Shown here: positions 15,980 to 46,016 of the stretch, in pieces
Position numbering within the stretch: position 1 is the first letter of the stretch
How the letters are laid out: every line of letters begins with the position of its first letter
Assembly (NCBI RefSeq): GCF_029433255.1
Contig: NZ_JAQTHU010000001.1
Span: 558,001-622,000, forward strand
Direction: 5' to 3'
From: Lactobacillus sp. ESL0791
Lineage (GTDB): Bacteria; Bacillota; Bacilli; Lactobacillales; Lactobacillaceae
Length of the DNA stretch: 64,000 nucleotides
Position numbers and translations under genes: made by a program
The notes under the pieces: generated by a model
What the model was told of the DNA's origin: nothing
The model's database searches: none
What the model saw: only the letters and a program-made list of their open reading frames with translations

Positions 15980-16376
15980 AGCAATATAATAATTTTTTTG
16001 CTATAATTAATCATGAACACAGCAAAGAGTTTTAAGGGTAGTGGTCATTTTTCTAAAAAAGGAGAGGGTGCCAATGGTACGAAAATCCACAGAAAGGAAT
16101 TTGACCGATGAGCGTTACCGATTTGCTTGCAACTCTGTTTGCATTTGGATCGTTTCTGCTGATGTTGTTGACATATATCGACAATCATCACAAAAAATGA
16201 CGGCACTAAAAAACTACCTTGTTTTAACTTTGGCTAGTTACAGGTAGCTTTTTAGTTATTATTACTGACCACCGCTCTTTAAGCGGGAGCTGTAGTTCAA
16301 AAGATGTCCCCTTTTGTGTTGGGGCTTCTTTTTTGTCTACACTTGTATTGTAACATGATTTCATTTGGATAGATAG
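15980..16376 (+). repeat. tandem duplication unit, copy 2 (type I toxin locus)
   Basis: Second direct repeat (~397 bp). The -10 TATAAT is at 16002-16007 and the bidirectional hairpin at about 16206-16255. Compared with copy 1 there are changes in the hairpin loop and just downstream, where the minus-strand TATAGTATAAC of copy 1 becomes AATAATAAC. Confidence 0.95.
16108..16200 (+). CDS. holin-like type I toxin (Hol_Tox family), copy 2
   Basis: Identical 30-aa toxin ORF and ribosome binding site to copy 1, 430 bp downstream. Same membrane helix and IDNHHKK tail. Sequence identity of the coding part contrasts with changes in the adjoining noncoding part. Confidence 0.8.
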   Translation: MSVTDLLATLFAFGSFLLMLLTYIDNHHKK

Positions 16377-20433: not shown

Positions 20434-21000
20434 ATGGCGAAACTTAAAATGAATCCAAAAAGAGAACTGACCTTAATCAAGCGCATTCGGCAAAATGATG
20501 ATCAGGCCTTACCCGAGCTGTGCTTTTATTATCAACCGTTGATCAATAATGTTAAGAAAAGCTACTTTGTCCGCGATTATGATGACCAGGATTGGGACCA
20601 AGAAGCAATGATTGTCTGCCACCAGGCGGCCATAGATTATTCGCCGGATAAGGGGCATTTTGGTTCTTATTTTAAGAGGCGGTTGAATAATCATGCAACG
20701 TCATTGCTGCGGCGTGATTTGGCTTATCGCAGGCGCGCTTCTAAAGAAGCCATCTCGTGGGAAGCATTTTTAACTACGGAGGACGCATGCAGCTTTATGC
20801 CGCAAATTAATTATTTTTTATCAATTCCGGCGAGTGAAAGTTATACAGAATTTTTAGACAGTCTATCGAATTTGGAAATGAAGGCTTTGCTAGTTATTTT
20901 GGGTGAAGTCAGCCTAGAAGAAGTAGAAATTGACCGGTTGACATTGATCAGGGCAAGGTCGCGCGTGATGCAAAAGCTGCGCAAAGTGCTGCTTAATTAG
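20434..21000 (+). CDS. SigH/ComX-like alternative sigma factor
   Basis: 188-aa sigma-70 family protein. Region 2 is visible in LIKRIRQNDDQALPELCFYYQPLI and DYDDQDWDQEAMIVCHQAAIDY, with GHFGSYFKRRLNNHATSLLRRD after it. The C-terminal region 4 is short and weak. Its place (rlmB, then sigma factor, then rpmG-secE-nusG after a 9.6 kb insertion) equals that of sigH in Bacillus. In lactobacilli such factors are annotated ComX/SigH and may switch on competence-type genes. RBS TAAGGAGGAA. Confidence 0.8.
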   Translation: MAKLKMNPKRELTLIKRIRQNDDQALPELCFYYQPLINNVKKSYFVRDYDDQDWDQEAMIVCHQAAIDYSPDKGHFGSYFKRRLNNHATSLLRRDLAYRRRASKEAISWEAFLTTEDACSFMPQINYFLSIPASESYTEFLDSLSNLEMKALLVILGEVSLEEVEIDRLTLIRARSRVMQKLRKVLLN

Positions 21001-21288: not shown

Positions 21289-21317
21289 ATCCAACTAATA
21301 ATGATGTTCTACGCCCG

Positions 21318-21382
21318 GTGGTTACGCATTAGTTTAACCACTAAAGAAGACAGCTGCTCAATTAAGTGACTGTCTTTTCGTT
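21318..21382 (+). terminator. two hairpins ending the 71-aa gene
   Basis: GTGGTTA/TAACCAC (21318-21341), then AAGACAG (21347-21353) with CTGTCTT (21370-21376) followed by TTTTCG. Confidence 0.65.
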
Positions 21383-21412
21383 TGGAAAGATAAAAAAGAT
21401 TTTAAAATTAGC

Positions 21413-21440
21413 TTGACACTAGAAATGAGTCATTTATAAT
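21413..21440 (+). promoter_or_regulatory. strong promoter of liv leader 1
   Basis: Consensus TTGACA (21413-21418), 16-bp spacer and consensus TATAAT (21435-21440). Confidence 0.9.
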
Positions 21441-21482
21441 TTAGTTGTTAAATATAGATGAAAGTCAGAGGAGGGTACTTTA

Positions 21483-21569
21483 ATGGAAAAACAAATAATA
21501 AAATTTTTAGACATTAGAGTATATTCTGCTCAAAAAATAGAGGCCTTGTTGTTGCGCTATCGGACTTAA
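21483..21569 (+). CDS. leader peptide 1 (Ile/Leu/Val-rich), attenuator control
   Basis: 28-codon ORF starting MEKQIIKFLDIRVYSAQK and ending with a run IEALLLRYRT, nine branched-chain residues in all, three consecutive TTG Leu codons near the end. AGAGGAGGG gives a strong ribosome binding site at 21469-21477. The stop TAA lies inside RNA segment A of the attenuator, as expected for a ribosome-sensing leader. The second livJ gene has a matching leader (QKIE plus Leu run plus Arg shared). Confidence 0.85.
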   Translation: MEKQIIKFLDIRVYSAQKIEALLLRYRT

Positions 21570-21678
21570 CTAGATTACTTATATTGGTAATTATCAGAGT
21601 TAAGTCCTTGTTTGCGTTCCTTAATGACGGGGCTTAGCTGGTAAATAGAGCCTCGTTCATTATTGAACGGGGTTTTTA
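21562..21678 (+). promoter_or_regulatory. transcription attenuator of livJ1
   Basis: Five segments can pair alternately. A GGACTTAACT (21562-21571) pairs perfectly with B AGTTAAGTCC (21598-21607). B also pairs over 10 bp, with two G-U, with C (21630-21639). C (21627-21634) pairs with D (21649-21656). D CCTCGTTCA (21651-21659) pairs over 9 bp with E TGAACGGGG (21664-21672), followed by TTTTT: the terminator. Stalling before A gives A:B plus C:D and read-through; a ribosome at the stop codon gives B:C plus D:E and termination. Confidence 0.85.
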
Positions 21679-21712
21679 TTTTGGCTGAAGTTAGTTTAAG
21701 GAGAAAGATATT

Positions 21713-22900
21713 ATGAAAAAGATGCGAAAAACAATGATGACAGTAATGGCTGCTGCGACAGCGTTAATGCTAACGGGCTGCGGCGCCAAAAGCAGTAGCC
21801 ACGGTAATAAGCAGGATGCTGATACCGTTAAAATCGGGGTTAACATGGAACTATCCGGGTCGGCTGCAGGTTACGGTAATGCGGAAAAACAGGGAATTGA
21901 ATTAGCAACTTCCGAAATCAATAAGGCCGGCGGCATCAATGTTAACGGCCACAAGAAAAAGATCAAACTGGTAATCCGTGATAATAAAACGGCAACGACC
22001 ACTTCCTCCTCAATTGCTGCGCAATTAACAACTAAGGATAAGGTAGCTGCAATTGTCGGGCCAGCAACGACCAATGCGGGGACGGCCCAAATACCTAATA
22101 TTACCAAAGCTTCTGTTGCCAGCGTCAGTCCGTCGGCAACTGATCCGGGTTATACGCTGCAAAAGAACGACAAGGTGCAGCCATATGTCTTTCGGGCTTG
22201 TTTCCAGAATAATTTCCAGGGTGAAAGTGCCGCTAAATTTATGGCACAAACATTAAAGGTTAAGCGAGTTGCCGTTTATGCCGATAATTCCAGTGACTAT
22301 GGTACAGGATTAGCCAATGCCTTCAAGAAGACTTTTACCGGAAAAATTGTCGACAGTCAAACGTATTCAGAAGGTGATAAGGACTTTAATGCGGTTCTAA
22401 CCTCGTTTAAGTCAAAGAAAATCGATGCAATTTATGTTCCAGGCTATTACACCGAAGCTGGGCTGATTATCAAGCAAGCACGGCAGATTGGTATCAAGGC
22501 GCCGATCGTTGGCAGTGACGGCATGGCCGATCCGAAACTAGCACAAATTGCCGGTAAACAGAGTGCAACCAATGTTTATTACACGACACCATTTTCACTT
22601 CAGGTTGCTAAGAAAAATCCTGTTGCTGTAAAATTTATGAACGCATTTCGTGCCCGTTACCATGTTGCTGCACCAACATTTTCAGCTTTAGCTTATGATG
22701 CGGTTTATATGGTCAAGTCGGCAATTGAATCTGAGAAATCTGATGATTCAGCGAAAGTTGCTGCCGGATTAGCCAAGATTAAGGACTTTGATGGTGTTAC
22801 AGGTAAAATTACCGTCAACAAGACCCATGACCCAGAAATGCCGATTGCTGTTGAAGAGATGACTAACGGCAAGGTGACGAATTCGTTTAGTGTCAAATAA
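21713..22900 (+). CDS. livJ: branched-chain amino acid ABC transporter substrate-binding lipoprotein, copy 1
   Basis: 395-aa Leu/Ile/Val-binding protein family (Peripla_BP_6). The lipobox LTGC places the lipidated Cys at 23. The mature protein starts with KIGVNMELSGSAAGYGNAEKQ and contains GPATTNAG, YADNSSDYGTG and FSALAYDAVYMVKSA. It captures branched-chain amino acids (or related ligands) at the outer membrane face for LivHMGF. It is closely similar to the second livJ downstream; each has its own promoter, leader peptide and terminator, so the two can be expressed separately. RBS AAGGAGAAAG. Confidence 0.92.
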   Translation: MKKMRKTMMTVMAAATALMLTGCGAKSSSHGNKQDADTVKIGVNMELSGSAAGYGNAEKQGIELATSEINKAGGINVNGHKKKIKLVIRDNKTATTTSSSIAAQLTTKDKVAAIVGPATTNAGTAQIPNITKASVASVSPSATDPGYTLQKNDKVQPYVFRACFQNNFQGESAAKFMAQTLKVKRVAVYADNSSDYGTGLANAFKKTFTGKIVDSQTYSEGDKDFNAVLTSFKSKKIDAIYVPGYYTEAGLIIKQARQIGIKAPIVGSDGMADPKLAQIAGKQSATNVYYTTPFSLQVAKKNPVAVKFMNAFRARYHVAAPTFSALAYDAVYMVKSAIESEKSDDSAKVAAGLAKIKDFDGVTGKITVNKTHDPEMPIAVEEMTNGKVTNSFSVK

Positions 22901-22948
22901 TTAAAAAAAGCAAACATAATGTGCAAAAAATTTTTTCTACTGAGAAAC

Positions 22949-22976
22949 TTGACAGCCGGAAATAGAAGTTTATAAT
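22949..22976 (+). promoter_or_regulatory. strong promoter of liv leader 2
   Basis: Consensus TTGACA (22949-22954), 16-bp spacer, TATAAT (22971-22976), the same design as in front of copy 1. Confidence 0.9.
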
Positions 22977-23019
22977 TTTGTTTATTAAATAAAAATGATA
23001 TACATGGGAGGATAAATTA

Positions 23020-23097
23020 ATGATAAACCAAGGAATTACTACAAAAATTATTATTAATTTGTTTTCCGTGCAAAAGATTGAGATTTTGCTGCGGTGA
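23020..23097 (+). CDS. leader peptide 2 (Ile/Leu/Val-rich), attenuator control
   Basis: 25-codon ORF beginning MINQGITTKIIINLF and ending VQKIEILLR, eleven branched-chain residues, with three consecutive ATT Ile codons and an ATT-TTG-CTG stretch near the end. GGGAGG lies 9 bp upstream. The TGA stop abuts segment A. Confidence 0.85.
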   Translation: MINQGITTKIIINLFSVQKIEILLR

Positions 23098-23203
23098 GGA
23101 CTTGACTTGTGCACAATTAAAGTTAAGCCCTAGTTTGCGTTTATCATTGACCGGGGCTGACAGTAAGACTTAAACCTCGGTCACTAATCTGACTGAGGTT
23201 TTT
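23098..23203 (+). promoter_or_regulatory. transcription attenuator of livJ2-livHMGF
   Basis: Same five-segment plan as copy 1 in diverged sequence. A 23098-23108 pairs with B 23120-23130 (one mismatch). B pairs with C (GTTA and AGCCC with GGGCT-GAC, 23152-23161). C TGACCGGGG (23148-23156) pairs with D CCTCGGTCA (23175-23183). D pairs over 9 bp with E TGACTGAGG (23190-23198) before TTTTT. Pairings are kept although bases changed, which is compensatory covariation between the paralogous leaders. Confidence 0.85.
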
Positions 23204-23247
23204 CATTAATTATGTAATTCATGATTATTTGGTAGAGGAGAGGAATT

Positions 23248-24438
23248 ATGAAGAAAACGACGAAAAAATTAATGACGGTATTTTCAGCTGTGGCGGCAAC
23301 AATGATGCTTGCTGGTTGTAGCGTAGCGAAAAACAGCTCAAAAGGCACAAAGCAGGATGACAAGACTGTTAAAATTGGAATGAACATGGAATTGTCGGGG
23401 GCAACGGCTGGTTATGGCAACGCTGAAAAAAACGGGATTGACCTTGCTGTTTCTGAGATCAATCAAGCTGGCGGCATCAATGTTAACGGCCACAAGAAAA
23501 AGATTAAACTGATTACCCGTGACAACAAGAGTTCGAATACGACCTCGGCTTCAGTTGCTGCCCAATTGGTAAATAAAGATAAAGTAGCAGTTGTTGTTGG
23601 ACCGGCGACAACTAATGCTGCAACTGCAGAAATTCCGAATGTCACCAAGGCAAGCGTTGTTGGCTTGAGTCCTTCGGCTACGGATCCTAATTATACCCTG
23701 CAGAAAAATGGCAAGGTGCAGCCGTTTGTCTTTCGGGCTTGCTTCCAGGATAACTTCCAAGGAACAAGTGCAGCCAAGTTTGCCGATGATACGCTGCATG
23801 CTAAACGAGTAGCAATTTATGCGGATAATTCTAGTGACTACGGTACTGGGCTAGCTAAGGCCTTTAAGAAGACTTTCAAGGGTAAAGTTGTTGATATGCA
23901 GAATTATTCAGCAGGTGATAAGGACTTTAACGCCGTTTTAACTTCTTTTAAAGCTAAGAAAGTTGATGCAATTTATGTTGCTGGCTACTACACTGAAGCC
24001 GGACTAATTGTTAAGCAGGCAAGGCAGATGGGCATCAAAGTACCGATCCTTGGCGGTGATGGCATGGCTGATCCGAAGTTTGTACAAATTGCTGGTCAGA
24101 GCGCCACTAATATTTATTACACGACGCCGTTTTCTAACAGCGCAGCAACGAAGAATCCAGTTGCACTTAAATTTATGAAGGCTTATAAGGCACGTTATAA
24201 CGAAGCGGCCCCAACATTTTCAGCTTTAGCTTACGATGCGGTTTACATGGTTAAGGCAGCGATCGAATCTGAAAAATCTGACGATTCAGTTAAAATTGCC
24301 GATGGTTTAGCCAAATTAAAAGATTTCCCGGGAGTATCGGGCAAGATCACGATGAATAAGACGCACGATCCGGAAATGCCGATCACGATGGTAAAACTGG
24401 TCAACGGTAAAATTAATAAGGCGTTCAGTGTTAAATAA
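23248..24438 (+). CDS. livJ: branched-chain amino acid ABC transporter substrate-binding lipoprotein, copy 2
   Basis: 396-aa paralogue of the upstream livJ, lipobox LAGC with Cys24. Same blocks (GMNMELSGATAGYGNAEKN, GPATTNAATAEIPN, YADNSSDYGTG). It is 7 bp ahead of livH and so belongs to the transporter operon, whereas copy 1 is a separately promoted unit. Two binding proteins feeding one membrane complex would widen or tune substrate range. Confidence 0.93.
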   Translation: MKKTTKKLMTVFSAVAATMMLAGCSVAKNSSKGTKQDDKTVKIGMNMELSGATAGYGNAEKNGIDLAVSEINQAGGINVNGHKKKIKLITRDNKSSNTTSASVAAQLVNKDKVAVVVGPATTNAATAEIPNVTKASVVGLSPSATDPNYTLQKNGKVQPFVFRACFQDNFQGTSAAKFADDTLHAKRVAIYADNSSDYGTGLAKAFKKTFKGKVVDMQNYSAGDKDFNAVLTSFKAKKVDAIYVAGYYTEAGLIVKQARQMGIKVPILGGDGMADPKFVQIAGQSATNIYYTTPFSNSAATKNPVALKFMKAYKARYNEAAPTFSALAYDAVYMVKAAIESEKSDDSVKIADGLAKLKDFPGVSGKITMNKTHDPEMPITMVKLVNGKINKAFSVK

Positions 24439-24445
24439 GTAAGGG

Positions 24446-25333
24446 ATGGTCAATTTGCAAACTGTTTTGCAGCAGGTAATTAATGCCTTGTCGCTGGGTG
24501 CGGTCTACGCTTTGTTAGCGCTGGGCTACACGATGGTTTACGGTATTATTAAACTAATCAATTTTGCTCATGGAGATATTTATATGCTAGGGGCCTTCTG
24601 GGCTTACTATGTTATTAACTTTTGGCATTTAAACTTCATCGGTGCTTTATTATCATCAATGGTTATTGGCGCACTGTCGGGTGTGGTGATTGAATATTTT
24701 GCCTACCGGCCTCTGCGTAATTCCCCACGAATTGCGGTGTTGATCACAGCAATTGGGGTTTCCTTCCTATTAGAGAATGGAATGTCCTATCTGTTCGGCG
24801 CCAATCCGCGGAGTTTTCCGCAGGTAATTAAGCAGTTTAATTTCAATATTGGCGGTGTGCTGATTTCTAACATTCAAATTTTGATTTTAGCGACCGCGCT
24901 GATTTTAATGGTTTTGCTGCAAATTATTATTCAAAAAACCAAAATGGGCCGTGCCATGCGGGCCGTTTCGGTCGATCCGGAGGCAGCCGAGCTTGTGGGG
25001 GTTGATGTTAACCACACGATTTCCTTTACTTTTGCTTTAGGTTCGGCTTTGGCTGGTGCCGCCGGTGTCTTAATTGGGATGTACTACAACTCAATTGACC
25101 CATTGATGGGCATGACCCCTGGGATTAAGGCCTTCGTTGCTGCCGTTTTGGGCGGCATCGGTTCTATTCCTGGTGCTTCGGTTGGCGGCTTCTTGATCGG
25201 AATTTTGGAGACATTCTTCCAGTCAATCGGCTTGTCGGCGTATAAGGATGCCGTTGTTTACCTTGTTTTGATTATTATTTTGCTCTTCTTACCGTCCGGA
25301 ATTTTCGGCAAAAATACTAGGGAAAAGGTGTAG
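24446..25333 (+). CDS. livH: branched-chain amino acid ABC transporter permease LivH
   Basis: 295-aa membrane permease (about 8 helices), LivH/HisM-type. Characteristic are GYTMVYGIIKLINFAHGDIYM near the N-terminus and the cytoplasmic coupling segment RAVSVDPEAAELVGVDV. ATG 24446 has a weak site; an in-frame TTG at 24455 with AAGGGATGG upstream is a possible alternative start. Confidence 0.94.
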   Translation: MVNLQTVLQQVINALSLGAVYALLALGYTMVYGIIKLINFAHGDIYMLGAFWAYYVINFWHLNFIGALLSSMVIGALSGVVIEYFAYRPLRNSPRIAVLITAIGVSFLLENGMSYLFGANPRSFPQVIKQFNFNIGGVLISNIQILILATALILMVLLQIIIQKTKMGRAMRAVSVDPEAAELVGVDVNHTISFTFALGSALAGAAGVLIGMYYNSIDPLMGMTPGIKAFVAAVLGGIGSIPGASVGGFLIGILETFFQSIGLSAYKDAVVYLVLIIILLFLPSGIFGKNTREKV

Positions 25334-25341
25334 GTGGCAAA

Positions 25342-26295
25342 ATGAAAAAGAATTGGAAATACATTTTAGCCTGGCTGCTGATTATGATTGCGGGCTTTTG
25401 CCTGATTGATGCTCTAATTGCGGTTGGGGTAATTGACAACTTTATTGAAAACATGCTGGTAACGATCGGCATTAATATCATTTTGGCAACAGGACTAAAC
25501 CTGATTATCGGCTTTAGCGGGCAATTTTCATTGGGCCACGCCGGTTTTATGGCGATTGGTGCTTATGCGACGGCAATTATCACGCAGCGCATGGACAGCA
25601 ATCTCGGCTTTCTCATTTCGCTGATTGTGGGAATGATTTTGTCAATTATCGTGGCTTTGATTGTTGGTTTTGCGACTTTGCGTCTGCGCGGCGATTATTT
25701 GGCAATTGCCACGCTGGGAGCTGCGGAAATTATCCGCAACGTGATCAATAATTTGAAGATTACCGGCGGTTCAAGCGGGATGTTTAATATTCCCCAATAT
25801 TGTACCTGGGCCACGGTTTATGTCTTGGTCTGCCTGACTACGATTGTTTTACTGAACTTTGTCCGTTCCCGCAGCGGCCGGGCAATCAAGGCTGTGCGCG
25901 AAGACGATATTGCTGCTGAAGCAATGGGCATCAACACAACCAAGTGGAAACTTGCTGCTTTTGTCCTAGGTGCAGCGACTGCGGCTATTGCTGGCGGCCT
26001 TCACGCATCTTACCTGCAGACAATTGCCCCAAGTGATTTCGGCATTATGGAGTCAATCTCAATTTTGGTGATTGTTGTCTTGGGCGGTGTCGGCAGCATG
26101 ACCGGGACCTTTCTTGCAGCGATTGTTTTGGGTATTTTGGATACGGTTCTGCAGAACTTCGGTGCTTTAAGAATGGTGATTTACGCTGCTGCCCTAATTT
26201 TGATCATGATCTTTAAACCGTCTGGCCTTTTAGGCAACCGGGAATTATCATTAAAGAAGTTGGGTCAGCACTTTACCAGGAAGCAGAGGAGTTAG
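25342..26295 (+). CDS. livM: branched-chain amino acid ABC transporter permease LivM
   Basis: 317-aa partner permease. GFSGQFSLGHAGFMAIGAYA and the coupling segment GRAIKAVREDDIAAEAMGI are typical of LivM. RBS AGGTGGCAAA. It follows livH by 8 bp and precedes livG by 3 bp. Confidence 0.94.
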   Translation: MKKNWKYILAWLLIMIAGFCLIDALIAVGVIDNFIENMLVTIGINIILATGLNLIIGFSGQFSLGHAGFMAIGAYATAIITQRMDSNLGFLISLIVGMILSIIVALIVGFATLRLRGDYLAIATLGAAEIIRNVINNLKITGGSSGMFNIPQYCTWATVYVLVCLTTIVLLNFVRSRSGRAIKAVREDDIAAEAMGINTTKWKLAAFVLGAATAAIAGGLHASYLQTIAPSDFGIMESISILVIVVLGGVGSMTGTFLAAIVLGILDTVLQNFGALRMVIYAAALILIMIFKPSGLLGNRELSLKKLGQHFTRKQRS

Positions 26296-26298
26296 CGC

Positions 26299-27081
26299 AT
26301 GAAACATTTACTTGAAGTTGACCATGTTGTAAAAAAGTTTGGCGGACTAGTTGCCGTTAATGATGTGTCGCTGTATTTAGATGCTAATGAATTGATTGCT
26401 TTGATTGGCCCGAACGGTGCCGGGAAAACGACGCTGTTTAATCTGTTAACGGGGATGGTGACACCAACAAGCGGAAAAATAACCTTGAACACGGAACACC
26501 ATTCGTATGATTTAACGCGTAAGACGGCGACGCAAATTGCAGACTTAGGTTTATCCCGAACCTTTCAAAATATTCGTCTTTTTAAGGACTTGACTGTTTT
26601 GGACAATGTCTTAACGGCAATGACCAACAAGTATCATGAAGGCTTTTTGACGACAGTATTACGCTTACCCAGTTTCTACCGGACTGAGCAGGAAATGAAG
26701 ACCGCCGCACAGAAGTTACTGAAAATTTTTGACCTGGAAAATGAGCAGACGACGTTAGCCAAGAATCTGCCGTACGGAACGCAGCGCCGCCTGGAAATTG
26801 TGCGGGCCCTGGCTACTCAGCCGAAGATTCTGTTTTTGGATGAACCAGCTGCAGGGATGAACCCGGAAGAAACTGCTGATTTAACGGATTTGATCAAGTA
26901 TATTCAAAAAGAATTCAAGATCACGGTGTTACTGATTGAACATGATATGTCGCTGGTAATGAATCTGGCGCAGCGAATTTATGTTCTGGATCAAGGGCAA
27001 GTTTTGGCTGCCGGAAAGCCGGAAAAGATCAAGGCTGATCCGGCAGTTATCAAAGCATACTTGGGAGAGGGTGACGATTAG
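26299..27081 (+). CDS. livG: branched-chain amino acid ABC transporter ATPase LivG
   Basis: 260-aa ABC ATPase. Walker A GPNGAGKTT, the Liv-type GLSRTFQNIRLFKDL segment, a variant signature LPYGTQRRLE (Liv ATPases often have YGxQRRLE) and Walker B ILFLDEPAAGMNP. It drives uptake together with LivF. Ends directly at the livF start. Confidence 0.94.
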   Translation: MKHLLEVDHVVKKFGGLVAVNDVSLYLDANELIALIGPNGAGKTTLFNLLTGMVTPTSGKITLNTEHHSYDLTRKTATQIADLGLSRTFQNIRLFKDLTVLDNVLTAMTNKYHEGFLTTVLRLPSFYRTEQEMKTAAQKLLKIFDLENEQTTLAKNLPYGTQRRLEIVRALATQPKILFLDEPAAGMNPEETADLTDLIKYIQKEFKITVLLIEHDMSLVMNLAQRIYVLDQGQVLAAGKPEKIKADPAVIKAYLGEGDD

Positions 27082-27792
27082 ATGGCAATGCTTGAAGTTA
27101 AGGATTTACATGTCAATTACGGAGTTATTCAGGCGGTCAAAGGCGTCAGCTTTGAAATCAATAAGGGCGAGATTGTTTCCCTTATTGGTGCCAACGGTGC
27201 CGGTAAATCAACAATTGTTAAGACAATTTCTGGATTGCTCAAGCCTAAGGAAGGCACGATCGTTTACCAGGATCAGGAAATTCAAAAGATGAAGGCGCCG
27301 CAGATTGTTGCGGCTGGAATCTCCCAGGTTGCTGAAGGGAGGCACATCTTTTCCGGAATGACGGTTTTAGAAAATTTGCAAATGGGTGCTTTTTTACAGC
27401 ATAACCGAACAGAAACACTCGCCACCTATAAAGAAGTTTTCGAGCGCTTTCCCATTTTGAAACAACGGCAAAATCAGGATGCGGCCACGTTGTCCGGTGG
27501 TGAGCAGCAGATGCTCGCGATGGGGCGGGCGTTGATGGCCAGGCCAAAACTGCTGCTTTTGGATGAGCCCTCAATGGGTTTGTCACCGCTCTTTATTCAA
27601 GAAATTTTTACAATTATTCAAGAATTAAATAAAAAGGGCACAACTATTTTATTGATTGAGCAAAATGCCAAGCAGGCGCTGGCAATTGCGGACCGCGGTT
27701 ATGTGCTGGCAACGGGCAACGTCCAGCTGACCGGAACCGGTGCTGAATTGCTGGCAAATCCTGACGTTCAGCGTGTTTACTTTGGTGGCTAA
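27082..27792 (+). CDS. livF: branched-chain amino acid ABC transporter ATPase LivF
   Basis: 236-aa ABC ATPase: GANGAGKST, QVAEGRHIFSGMTVLENL (Liv-type), SGGEQQM, LLLDEPSMGLSP. RBS GGAGAGGG within livG. Last gene of the operon, followed by a terminator. Confidence 0.94.
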   Translation: MAMLEVKDLHVNYGVIQAVKGVSFEINKGEIVSLIGANGAGKSTIVKTISGLLKPKEGTIVYQDQEIQKMKAPQIVAAGISQVAEGRHIFSGMTVLENLQMGAFLQHNRTETLATYKEVFERFPILKQRQNQDAATLSGGEQQMLAMGRALMARPKLLLLDEPSMGLSPLFIQEIFTIIQELNKKGTTILLIEQNAKQALAIADRGYVLATGNVQLTGTGAELLANPDVQRVYFGG

Positions 27793-27914: not shown

Positions 27915-29657
27915 TTATTTTAGTACTTGCTGGGTATCAGCGATAATTTGCGGAACCGTCAAGTGATTTTCTTTGTAAAGCTGATCAAGTGGTGTTTGAT
28001 CGGTGTAGACACGCTTTTGCCCGTAGTTAAGAACTTTTACAGCGGATTTTCCTAAATATGATGCGATTTTTTGACCAAAGCCGCCATCAAGAACATCATC
28101 CTCCAAGGTAATGATCAGCTGGTGAGTCTGCGCTAGTTGCGCCAATGTCTTTTTGTCTAAAATATTGGCAGACAGGGGATTGACCAAGGTTGCGCCAAGC
28201 TGGCTGGCAGCTTCTTGTCCCAACGGATAAAAGTCGCCCAAAGCCAAAACCGCCACCTTTTTTCCTGGCTTAACCTGGTAGTTGATTTCGGAATAATCTG
28301 TTAGGGTGCCAGTCAAATTATCTTCAGGAACTGCTTGGGCGGGCATCTTAATTGCTACCGGACGCTGCCGCTGCCTGATTGCCCAGTGCATCATTGCCTT
28401 TTCTTCTGCAAGCGTGGTTGGCGCAAGATAAAGCCAATTGGGTAAGTTACTAAGCAGTACTTGATCAAACAGGCCGAGGTGCGTTTTAGGTTGATTGGAA
28501 ATGCCGCTGCGGCCAACCATCATTACTACGGGTAAATTATTGGCGGCAACATCATGAGACAGCTGGTCAAATGCCCGCTGCAGGAAGCTAGCATTTTCAA
28601 ACAGCACCGGAATGCCGCCCTCTTTGGCAAAGCCGGCAGCCACGGCGATTGAGTCTTGCTCAGCAATCCCGACATCAAGATAGTTTTCTGGATAATTAAT
28701 TTTGATTTCATCTAAGGAGAAATTAGCCGGGATCGCGGCATTGATGGCCATAATTTTTTGTCCGGCAGTAATTTCGTCTTTGAGAACATCAATTGCGACA
28801 GAATTTGCATCTGCTTTTGTTTTGTTGCTCGTTTTACCTGAAAGTAAGTCGGCTGAAGCCCAGTGATAGTGCTCCTCATCTTTAAGTGCAGGCGCAAACC
28901 CCTTGCCTTTCAGCGTGTTAATGTGCAGTACAACGGGGTGATCAATATTTTTGACAGCTTTAAATGCGGCGATCATTGCTTCAAGGCTATTACCATCGGC
29001 AACGTAGCGGTAATCAAAGCCCATCGCCGTGAAGGGATTCTCAGGGCTGGTGCCGTTTGAAGCGCGCAGCTTTTTGAGAGCAGTAACCAAGCCGCCGACA
29101 TTTTTATCAATTGACCATTGGTTGTCGTTGACAACAATGACTAGGTTGCCTTTTTCCCGTGCAGCATTGTTAAAACCCTCAAAGGCCAGTCCACCGGTCA
29201 TTGCACCGTCACCAATTAGGGCCATGATGTTTTCGTGACCGCCCAGCAAGTCGCGTGCTTTAGCCATGCCTGTGGCCAATGCAATTGAAGTTGAAGTGTG
29301 GCCGATGGCAAAATAATCGTAGGGACTTTCTTCGGGATCGGTATATGGGCCAACGTCCTGATAGTGTTCCGGATCCAGCCAGGCTTGTGCGCGTCCCGTT
29401 AACATTTTATGGGGATAACTTTGGTGGGAAACGTCCCAGATAATCTTGTCCTTGGGTGCGTTAAAAACATAGTGATAAGCAATTGTGGCTTCGACAATTC
29501 CCAGGTCTGGACCTAAATGCCCGCCAAGTGCAGTATCTTTTTCAATGATTAGGGTGCGAATTTCTTTGGCTAACTGTTGCAATTGTGTTAGTGATAATTT
29601 TTTTAAATCGGTGGGGCCGGAAATTTTATTTAATAAGTAGTTTGGGTGCTGATTCAT
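27915..29657 (-). CDS. dxs: 1-deoxy-D-xylulose-5-phosphate synthase-like thiamine diphosphate enzyme
   Basis: 580-aa transketolase-fold enzyme, slightly shorter than usual DXS (~620). DXS blocks are strong: GHLGPDLGIVEATIAYHYVF, DKIIWDVSHQSYPHKMLTGR, AIGHTSTSIALATGMA, GDGAMTGG with the ThDP-binding continuation NDNQWSID, and a C-terminal domain with AEQDSIAVAAGFA. DXS condenses pyruvate and glyceraldehyde 3-phosphate to DXP. Lactobacilli normally make isoprenoids by the mevalonate route, so DXP would serve thiamine or other use, or the specificity differs. No other MEP gene is present. RBS AAGGAG. Confidence 0.8.
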   Translation of the reverse strand: MNQHPNYLLNKISGPTDLKKLSLTQLQQLAKEIRTLIIEKDTALGGHLGPDLGIVEATIAYHYVFNAPKDKIIWDVSHQSYPHKMLTGRAQAWLDPEHYQDVGPYTDPEESPYDYFAIGHTSTSIALATGMAKARDLLGGHENIMALIGDGAMTGGLAFEGFNNAAREKGNLVIVVNDNQWSIDKNVGGLVTALKKLRASNGTSPENPFTAMGFDYRYVADGNSLEAMIAAFKAVKNIDHPVVLHINTLKGKGFAPALKDEEHYHWASADLLSGKTSNKTKADANSVAIDVLKDEITAGQKIMAINAAIPANFSLDEIKINYPENYLDVGIAEQDSIAVAAGFAKEGGIPVLFENASFLQRAFDQLSHDVAANNLPVVMMVGRSGISNQPKTHLGLFDQVLLSNLPNWLYLAPTTLAEEKAMMHWAIRQRQRPVAIKMPAQAVPEDNLTGTLTDYSEINYQVKPGKKVAVLALGDFYPLGQEAASQLGATLVNPLSANILDKKTLAQLAQTHQLIITLEDDVLDGGFGQKIASYLGKSAVKVLNYGQKRVYTDQTPLDQLYKENHLTVPQIIADTQQVLK

Positions 29658-40810: not shown

Positions 40811-40838
40811 TTGCAAAAGCCGTTTGATCTGCTATACT
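40811..40838 (+). promoter_or_regulatory. rplJL promoter
   Basis: TTGCAA (40811-40816), 16-bp spacer, TATACT (40833-40838). Confidence 0.7.
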
Positions 40839-40844
40839 TATCAG

Positions 40845-40960
40845 AGTAGATTCTACCTAAGACTCGGGTGACGAAAAGTCTTAAAATCCCGCCGAGGCCA
40901 GAAGATAATGAAGAATTTTGAATGCTCCATGTCTTGCTTGGCATGGAGTTTTTTTCGGCC
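40845..40960 (+). ncRNA. ribosomal protein L10 leader with terminator
   Basis: The 5' UTR holds the conserved L10-leader region (CCTAAGACTCGGGTGACG, then AGTCTTAAAATCCCGCCGA and GGCCAGAAGA) and ends with CTCCATG (40925-40931) pairing CATGGAG (40942-40948) before seven T. L10(L12)4 binding to such leaders causes premature termination in Firmicutes. Confidence 0.75.
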
Positions 40961-41002
40961 TTTAGAGAATTTATCAATTTTTACTAACGGAGGTGAATTC
41001 GA

Positions 41003-45396: not shown

Positions 45397-45924
45397 ATGG
45401 ATTTTACCAGTGAAGAAAAAAAGAAGTACATGCAATTAGCGTTTGCGGAAGCCAAAAAAGCTGAAGAACAAGGTGAAGTGCCAATTGGTGCGATTGTTGT
45501 TGCACCCGCTGGTCAGGTAATCGGTACGGGGTATAATCGCCGCGAGCTTGATCAAGACGCCAGTAGTCACGCGGAAATGCTGGCAATCCGGCAGTCCTGT
45601 GCCAATTTGGGCCTGTGGCGCCTCATCGACTGCAGCCTGTTTGTTACCCTGGAGCCCTGTCCGATGTGTGCCGGTGCAATTATTAATTCCCGTATTAAAA
45701 ATGTGTTTTATGGTGCACCTGATCCTAAGGCTGGCGCTGCCGGCAGCGTGATTGACCTTTTTTCCGTTCCCAAATTTAACCATCATCCTAACGTAATTCG
45801 CGGCCTGTACCGTGATGAGGCTAGTCAAATGTTAAAGAGTTTTTTTCAGGCGATTCGAGCAGAACAGAAAAAAGCAAAAATTCAGCAAAACGGTGGAAAA
45901 AACTGGAAAAATACGTTATCATAA
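45397..45924 (+). CDS. tadA: tRNA-specific adenosine deaminase
   Basis: 175 aa; zinc/catalytic HAE at 58-60 and PCPMC with Cys88 and Cys91. It deaminates A34 of tRNA-Arg. RBS AGGGGGGTT. It immediately precedes the SRP RNA gene, as in Bacillus. Confidence 0.93.
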   Translation: MDFTSEEKKKYMQLAFAEAKKAEEQGEVPIGAIVVAPAGQVIGTGYNRRELDQDASSHAEMLAIRQSCANLGLWRLIDCSLFVTLEPCPMCAGAIINSRIKNVFYGAPDPKAGAAGSVIDLFSVPKFNHHPNVIRGLYRDEASQMLKSFFQAIRAEQKKAKIQQNGGKNWKNTLS

Positions 45925-45927
45925 TTT

Positions 45928-46010
45928 GTGGGCAATGTTTGACTCCCAAAGCGTGTCAGGACCGGAAGGTAGCAGCACTAAGGCCGCTTGAGCATGTGCC
46001 TTTTATTAGA
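45928..46010 (+). ncRNA. ffs: signal recognition particle RNA, small bacterial type
   Basis: Contains the universal domain IV core GTGTCAGGACCGGAAGGTAG followed by CAGCACTAAG, with flanking arms (GGCAATGTTTGACTCCCAAAG / CTTGAGCATGTGCCTT) that pair. Location between tadA and dnaX is the conserved Firmicutes site. Ends are approximate. Confidence 0.92.
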
Positions 46011-46016
46011 AATTCA

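Follow-up and report, generated by a model that had tools for sequence, protein, structure and literature searches.

In enterobacterial trp and leu leaders, the control codons occupy the first strand of a helix on which the release or blocking of the antiterminator strand depends. In Staphylococcus aureus, an ilv-leu attenuator with a Leu-rich leader peptide has been experimentally tested, and predicted branched-chain amino acid (BCAA) leader peptides for synthesis genes of Lactococcus lactis and Streptococcus are cited as well, according to the accessible part of PMC5794164. The corresponding part of PMC5864092 describes a tested attenuator of Listeria ilv-leu, Rli60, with a 13-residue leader peptide and super-attenuation when translation is blocked, and that of PMC2494555 reports that, in lactobacilli and others, certain BCAA symporters of the LIVCS type are T-box regulated. 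Literature searches, with limited coverage of subscription papers and supplements, returned no recognised description of leader-peptide attenuation ahead of liv, leuA, or leuB in Lactobacillaceae, and the main text of Naville and Gautheret (PMC2965389), in the portion available, contained neither 'livJ' nor 'branched'.

We investigated the leader upstream of livJ1 in the window, that is, the whole 64,000-nt stretch of Lactobacillus sp. ESL0791 DNA that was analysed (table 1). Judging from its sequence and from folding models, leader 1 very probably responds to charged tRNA-Leu by ribosome-mediated attenuation of transcription. The locus is ordered leader1-livJ1-leader2-livJ2-livHMGF. The NCBIfam matches of LivJ, LivH, LivM, LivG, and LivF were all below curated cut-offs, and the substrate of the liv transporter is a putative assignment. 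Among the neighbours, positions 20434-21000 encode a Sigma-70-like protein whose similarity to ECF or SigH-type sigma factors is weak and under the cut-offs, and a 1-deoxy-D-xylulose-5-phosphate synthase-like gene (27915-29657, minus strand) is convergent with the liv operon.

Table 1. Features of the two leaders and the liv genes (positions within the window)
Feature	Position	Strand	Remarks
Promoter 1	21413..21440	+	TTGACA-16-TATAAT, 12/12 consensus positions
Shine-Dalgarno-like sequence ahead of leader ORF 1	21467-21475	+	AGAGGAGGG
Leader peptide ORF 1	21483..21569	+	MEKQIIKFLDIRVYSAQKIEALLLRYRT*, 28 codons plus TAA
Segment L	21542..21555	+	TTG TTG TTG (21546-21554) plus flanks; partner C
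Segment A	21562..21571	+	holds leader 1 stop codon; partner B
Segment B	21598..21607	+	partners A or C; runs a few nt further in B:C
Segment C	21621..21639	+	three partners: L, B, D
Segment D	21647..21659	+	with C antiterminator, with E terminator
Segment E plus T tract	21664..21682	+	terminator 3' arm; E 21664-21676, T tract 21673-21682; 13 bp stem plus T run
Leader 1 terminator	21647-21676		formed by D:E
livJ1	21713..22900	+	branched-chain-type ABC substrate-binding protein; PF13458 above cut-off, PRK15404 below its cut-off
Leader 2, whole	22949-23247		own terminator
Promoter 2	22949..22976	+	TTGACA-16-TATAAT, 12/12 positions
Leader peptide ORF 2	23020..23097	+	MINQGITTKIIINLFSVQKIEILLR*
R2 match to leader 2	23071-23207		E 1.2e-8
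Segment A2	23098-23108	+
Segment B2	23120-23130	+
Segment C2	23144-23164	+
Segment D2	23172-23183	+
Segment E2	23190-23201	+
livJ2	23248..24438	+	76% identical to livJ1
livH	24446-25333	+	Pfam domains; best NCBIfam match
livM	25342-26295	+	Pfam domains; best NCBIfam match
livG	26299-27081	+	Pfam domains; best NCBIfam match
livF	27082-27792	+	Pfam domains; best NCBIfam match

The original prediction had described a consensus promoter, a 28-codon leader with three TTG codons four codons ahead of its stop, a perfect 10-bp helix A:B, a stop codon inside A, and a terminator D:E with a T tract, and all of these parts were recovered. The helices B:C, C:D, and D:E were present too, but the 10, 8, and 9 bp claimed for them were too short; we counted 14, 14, and 13 pairs, with one interruption each in B:C and C:D. 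The description of the leader as rich in Ile/Leu/Val held weakly (32% here, compared with 26% on average in the non-redundant leaders, counted ahead of the Leu run), and the conserved feature is the Leu run. Absent from that prediction were the helix L:C, the second leader, and the wide distribution of the element. L:C comprises 14 bp at −16.6 kcal/mol by duplex computation; the energies of B:C, C:D, and D:E are −16.1, −18.4, and −18.1 kcal/mol. On folding, the leader 1 RNA was more stable than 200 of 200 shuffles (z −6.15). As in ribosome-mediated attenuators, a short ORF with a ribosome-binding site and a run of amino-acid codons is present, and an intrinsic terminator separates the leader from the gene.

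In the mechanism that we infer, leucine is the regulated amino acid, and the leader would be translated, stall its ribosome under Leu shortage, and so elicit a transcriptional response. During shortage, a ribosome stalled on the Leu run would cover L and leave A free; A would pair with B, so that neither L nor B could hold C, and C would pair with D, blocking the terminator D:E and allowing livJ1 to be transcribed. When leucine is plentiful, a ribosome at the stop codon would cover A, leaving B to pair with C, and with B:C formed D would pair with E and transcription would end. With no ribosome, L and C would pair, enclosing the A:B hairpin, and D:E could form. Because the control codons would be one arm of the terminator-guarding helix, the choice of Leu codons would be doubly constrained, by coding and by RNA pairing.

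Two covariance models were used. R1 was built from 36 leaders, hand-picked among those folding clearly and including both window leaders, and R2, the hold-out model, from 31 leaders, none of them from the window's genus. When the window was scanned with R2, leader 1 was found at E 6.6e-13 and leader 2 at E 1.2e-8, the next match being at 0.075. The family genomes with livJ numbered 112 of 397 by genome search. A covariance search in other lactobacilli had been suggested as a check, and R1 matched strongly upstream of 83 of 124 livJ loci, 36 of them its seeds and 47 non-seeds. This total consists of 53 of 94 loci (E 2.5e-8 or better), all 28 livJ loci from L024-L052 that had upstream DNA, and the two window leaders; a strong match at the contig end of G199 was left uncounted, and the upstream counts exclude L030 (contig start) and the second fragment of G295. 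In L053-L101, livJ shares 60% or more identity with livJ1, and 48 of these 49 loci had an R1 match, the exception (L097) being cut by a contig end. The 40 other loci without a strong match had livJ copies at most 56% identical, and weak matches were seen at L103 (2.3e-5) and L124 (6.1e-4).

The leader ORF was similarly widespread. In named genomes, livJ was preceded by a leader ORF containing a run of Leu, or of Leu and Ile, at all 13 Lactobacillaceae loci L001-L013, among them L008 of Levilactobacillus parabrevis ATCC 53295; the Selenomonadales locus L014 (28% identity) lay outside this set. An ATG ORF with [AV]LLL near its end occurred in 80 of the 124 upstream regions, compared with 0.6 on average when the regions were dinucleotide-shuffled in ten rounds. 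Looser rules gave 86 (LLL; 3.4 in shuffles) and 94 (any three of L, I, V; 35.0 in shuffles) of 124. GTG serves as leader start in L075 and L076. The Leu codons varied synonymously among leaders (TTA, TTG, CTA, CTG, CTC, and CTT), Leu itself being a selection criterion there; leader composition and codon counts are biased by the selection for Leu/Ile runs, and it is the shuffled-ORF test that gives the chance rate. From 89 candidate leaders chosen by a Leu or Ile run, we obtained a set of 86 by omitting L023 (the window again), L073, and L077; the last two had no terminator by the rule used, yet both were R1-matched. Eight of the 86 had no strong R1 match (L103, L105, L108, L138, L139, and L142-L144). 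In genus g17 (L138, L139, and L142-L144), a diverged livJ leader ends in SQALLLLLML and has a terminator, with no R1 match at E 0.05.

The element also precedes other genes. With a threshold of E 0.01, an order-wide R1 search matched 81 of 395 genomes, of which 31 belong to the window's family and 50 do not; among the latter only G614 (4.8e-7) fell below 1e-5, and the other outside-family matches were treated as background. Besides G614, 46 non-liv matches at E 1e-6 or better and six weaker ones (E 2.5e-6 to 2.2e-5, among the matches listed, which reach to E of about 4.7e-4) make up 53 further loci. Their downstream proteins were LeuA-like (34), LeuB-like (10), glycerol-dehydrogenase-like (3), and amino-acid ABC binding proteins (2), with single cases of a peptide-type binding protein, an MFS protein, a liv-type binding protein (G614), and a contig end. 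One representative per downstream cluster was scanned, in pieces of up to 320 residues. Those of the LeuB, peptide-type, MFS, and liv-type proteins (the last with its Pfam match only) were above curated cut-offs, and the best matches of the LeuA, dehydrogenase, and amino-acid binding protein representatives lay under the cut-offs. All 53 loci had an ORF with at least three consecutive L, I, V, or M within its last ten residues, under a permissive rule allowing ATG, GTG, or TTG starts; in G614 (L249), from another family, the run consists of five Ile codons. At three loci of one genus (g6; L203, L229, and L234), the element lies ahead of a glycerol-dehydrogenase-like gene, whose connection to leucine is not apparent. 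At L225, an MFS transporter lies 245 nt beyond the element in place of leuA.

Covariation was measured on two alignments. In A4, 98.1% of cells paired, compared with 90.8% in shuffles, 14 of 24 pairs varied on both sides, and none of 500 shuffles reached any of five covariation measures. In A5, made without the window's genus, the paired percentage, the number of cells changed on both sides, and the covariation score were each reached by 0 of 500 shuffles, the count of both-side-changed pairs by 4, and that of pair types by 21; L:C here has 10 pairs, four of them changed on both sides. The A4 and A5 counts favour the structures because these were derived from the same alignments. L:C, A:B, and D:E covaried. 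In the MAFFT alignment, TTA-type and TTG-type leaders have C shifted by one base relative to each other, and B:C and C:D were for this reason assessed by segment swaps and not by column counts. This test used 61 leaders (L105, L108, L138, and L142 having been removed by hand beforehand) and 3092 swaps between leaders of similarity 0.75 or less, related leaders being non-independent. The mean weakening was 6.2 kcal/mol for D:E (93% of swaps weaker, 6% stronger), 4.1 for L:C (81%, 18%), 2.4 for C:D (65%, 32%), 1.7 for A:B (73%, 18%), and 1.6 for B:C (62%, 37%), and five control pairings changed by −0.3 to 0.3. A mutually exclusive antiterminator is thus backed by both covariation and swaps for L:C, A:B, and D:E, and by swaps only for B:C and C:D.

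The peptide is conserved as well in the residues flanking the Leu run (QDLALLLKxKDPT and similar). Such conservation would fit a nascent peptide whose end (LALLL..KDP or ..RT) stalls the ribosome on free leucine or another signal and not on uncharged tRNA-Leu. We regard this arrest as quite improbable, because the conserved residues coincide with segments L and A, whose pairing can explain their conservation, whereas the N-terminal part of the peptide varies freely. Moreover, the run reads VLIICC in one relative (L004/L026) and is five Ile codons in L249, which fits codon sensing better.

The consequences of stalling were predicted with a thermodynamic model, in which the RNA was folded from an assumed ribosome front to the end of D. 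The antiterminator pairing of leader 1 was 0.90 with the ribosome at the Leu codons, 0.13 at the stop, and 0.41 upstream, with an intermediate value (0.58) without a ribosome. Averaged over the 86 liv leaders, pairing was 0.30-0.39 while the front stood at −30 to −8 relative to the first Leu codon, rose to 0.58-0.69 at 0 to +14 nt, and fell back to 0.35-0.44 at +18 to +30. Forty leuA-like/leuB-like leaders not used in model building (44 minus L196, L209, L224, and L248, which missed the pattern used) gave 0.70-0.73 at 0 to +15, 0.40-0.47 at −30 to −6, 0.41 at +18, and 0.19 at +30. If 12-15 nt separate the ribosome front from the first P-site base, a front at +9 to +18 means that the A site is occupied by one of the three Leu codons. 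The means of the Leu, stop, upstream, and no-ribosome states were 0.60, 0.33, 0.33, and 0.41 for the liv leaders and 0.71, 0.37, 0.44, and 0.52 for the leu leaders. Individually, a margin of 0.2 for the Leu state over both the stop and upstream states was seen in just 43 of the 86 liv leaders and 21 of the 40 leu leaders, and a margin of 0.2 over the no-ribosome state in just 37 and 19, respectively. The reverse, by 0.2, was found in one liv leader each on the stop and upstream comparisons and in no leu leader. Stall-on/completion-off behaviour is predicted for leader 1 and on average, not for leader 2.

Strong alternative structures form even without a ribosome, as they would in a translation-independent attenuator, be it a ligand-binding RNA, a T-box-like tRNA sensor, or the site of an RNA-binding protein, with an incidental ORF. 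We consider this even less probable than peptide arrest. Rfam 15 gave no match at the window leaders at gathering score, nothing relevant over 21290-23260 at E up to 10, and only an unrelated cspA match at 8 related loci. The T-box model RF00230 had no match at the window leaders, and none of the 23 T-box matches of the genome (three above cut-off) lay inside the window. Furthermore, ORFs with [AV]LLL are much more frequent than expected by chance, and the model places the switch at the Leu codons. Candidate trpB, Spot 42, and anti-hemB matches were far under the Rfam cut-offs and were rejected. Elsewhere in the window, Rfam identified a ribosomal protein L10 leader (40838-40964), a small SRP RNA (45919-46014), and, marginally, the Listeria sRNA rli28 (15992-16178; 45.5 bits vs. 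a cut-off of 45). Taken together, the R2 match, covariation, swaps, stall scan, and leuA-like/leuB-like occurrence favour ribosome-mediated attenuation by Leu codons at livJ1, as had been proposed.

Leader 2, homologous to leader 1 and ahead of the adjacent paralogue livJ2, was found by reading and by the covariance models; a DNA search of the genome with leader 1 returned leader 1 itself, then a match at E 0.67, and missed leader 2. The leader 2 RNA was more stable than 200 of 200 shuffles (z −5.19). The modelled pairing was 0.84 at the Leu codons, 0.81 at the stop, 0.84 upstream, and 0.80 without a ribosome, and because these four states are nearly equal, no switch is predicted. This result, the lower R2 score than that of leader 1, and several broken L:C pairs raise the possibility that leader 1 works as described and leader 2 is a duplicate that has decayed or is constitutively open. 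We think this rather unlikely but a serious candidate: leader 2 has kept a perfect promoter, a strong terminator (−15.4 kcal/mol), and the pairings of all five helices, and its ORF, which includes IEILLR, is translatable. In three other genomes with two adjacent livJ copies (G363, G345, and G216), the second copy had no R1 match at E 0.05 (L106, L109, and L110).

Considering host physiology, the window's own genome (99.93% complete) had no match for ilvC (PF01450), leuA (TIGR00973), or CodY (PF06018); in the control genomes, the same searches were positive in 14, 14, and 2 of 14, respectively. The host probably depends on imported BCAAs. On balance, we lean towards a single uncatalogued attenuator family of nested design that would unite, in a large part of Lactobacillaceae, uptake genes (liv and, now and then, genes of peptide or amino-acid binding proteins) and the synthesis genes leuA and leuB in one leucine regulon, and that may be a main leucine sensor in CodY-less genomes. 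If so, lactobacilli, including genomes lacking CodY or leucine synthesis, would have a leucine sensor, and ABC-type uptake would join biosynthesis among the functions under leader-peptide attenuation. Direct tests of the mechanism could build on the natural replacement of Leu codons by Ile codons and on the two constraints that Leu codons would be under, and a covariance model of the R1/R2 kind could be used to annotate the family.

Compared with the known systems, leader 1 shares with the enterobacterial trp and leu leaders the placement of control codons in the first strand of a helix; unlike in those, its stop codon is far from C, and a separate segment B would close C once the ribosome finishes. 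With T-box leaders (RF00230) it would share tRNA-charging logic and transcription termination, but here a translated ORF takes the place of the T-box, of which the window has no match. The S. aureus ilv-leu attenuator, likened here by description and not by sequence, has in common a leader peptide, Leu-dependent attenuation, and a host among the Firmicutes; as far as the accessible text goes, it serves biosynthesis together with CodY (PMC5794164), whereas leader 1 precedes an uptake gene in a genome without a CodY match. Listeria Rli60 likewise combines a leader peptide with a terminator and an antiterminator; in the accessible part of its description (PMC5864092), it controls a biosynthesis operon with CodY and its terminator is formed by segments 3:4, whereas six segments are present here and A:B is nested within L:C. 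The best reading is a known mechanism in a Lactobacillaceae family of nested design for which Rfam gave no match.
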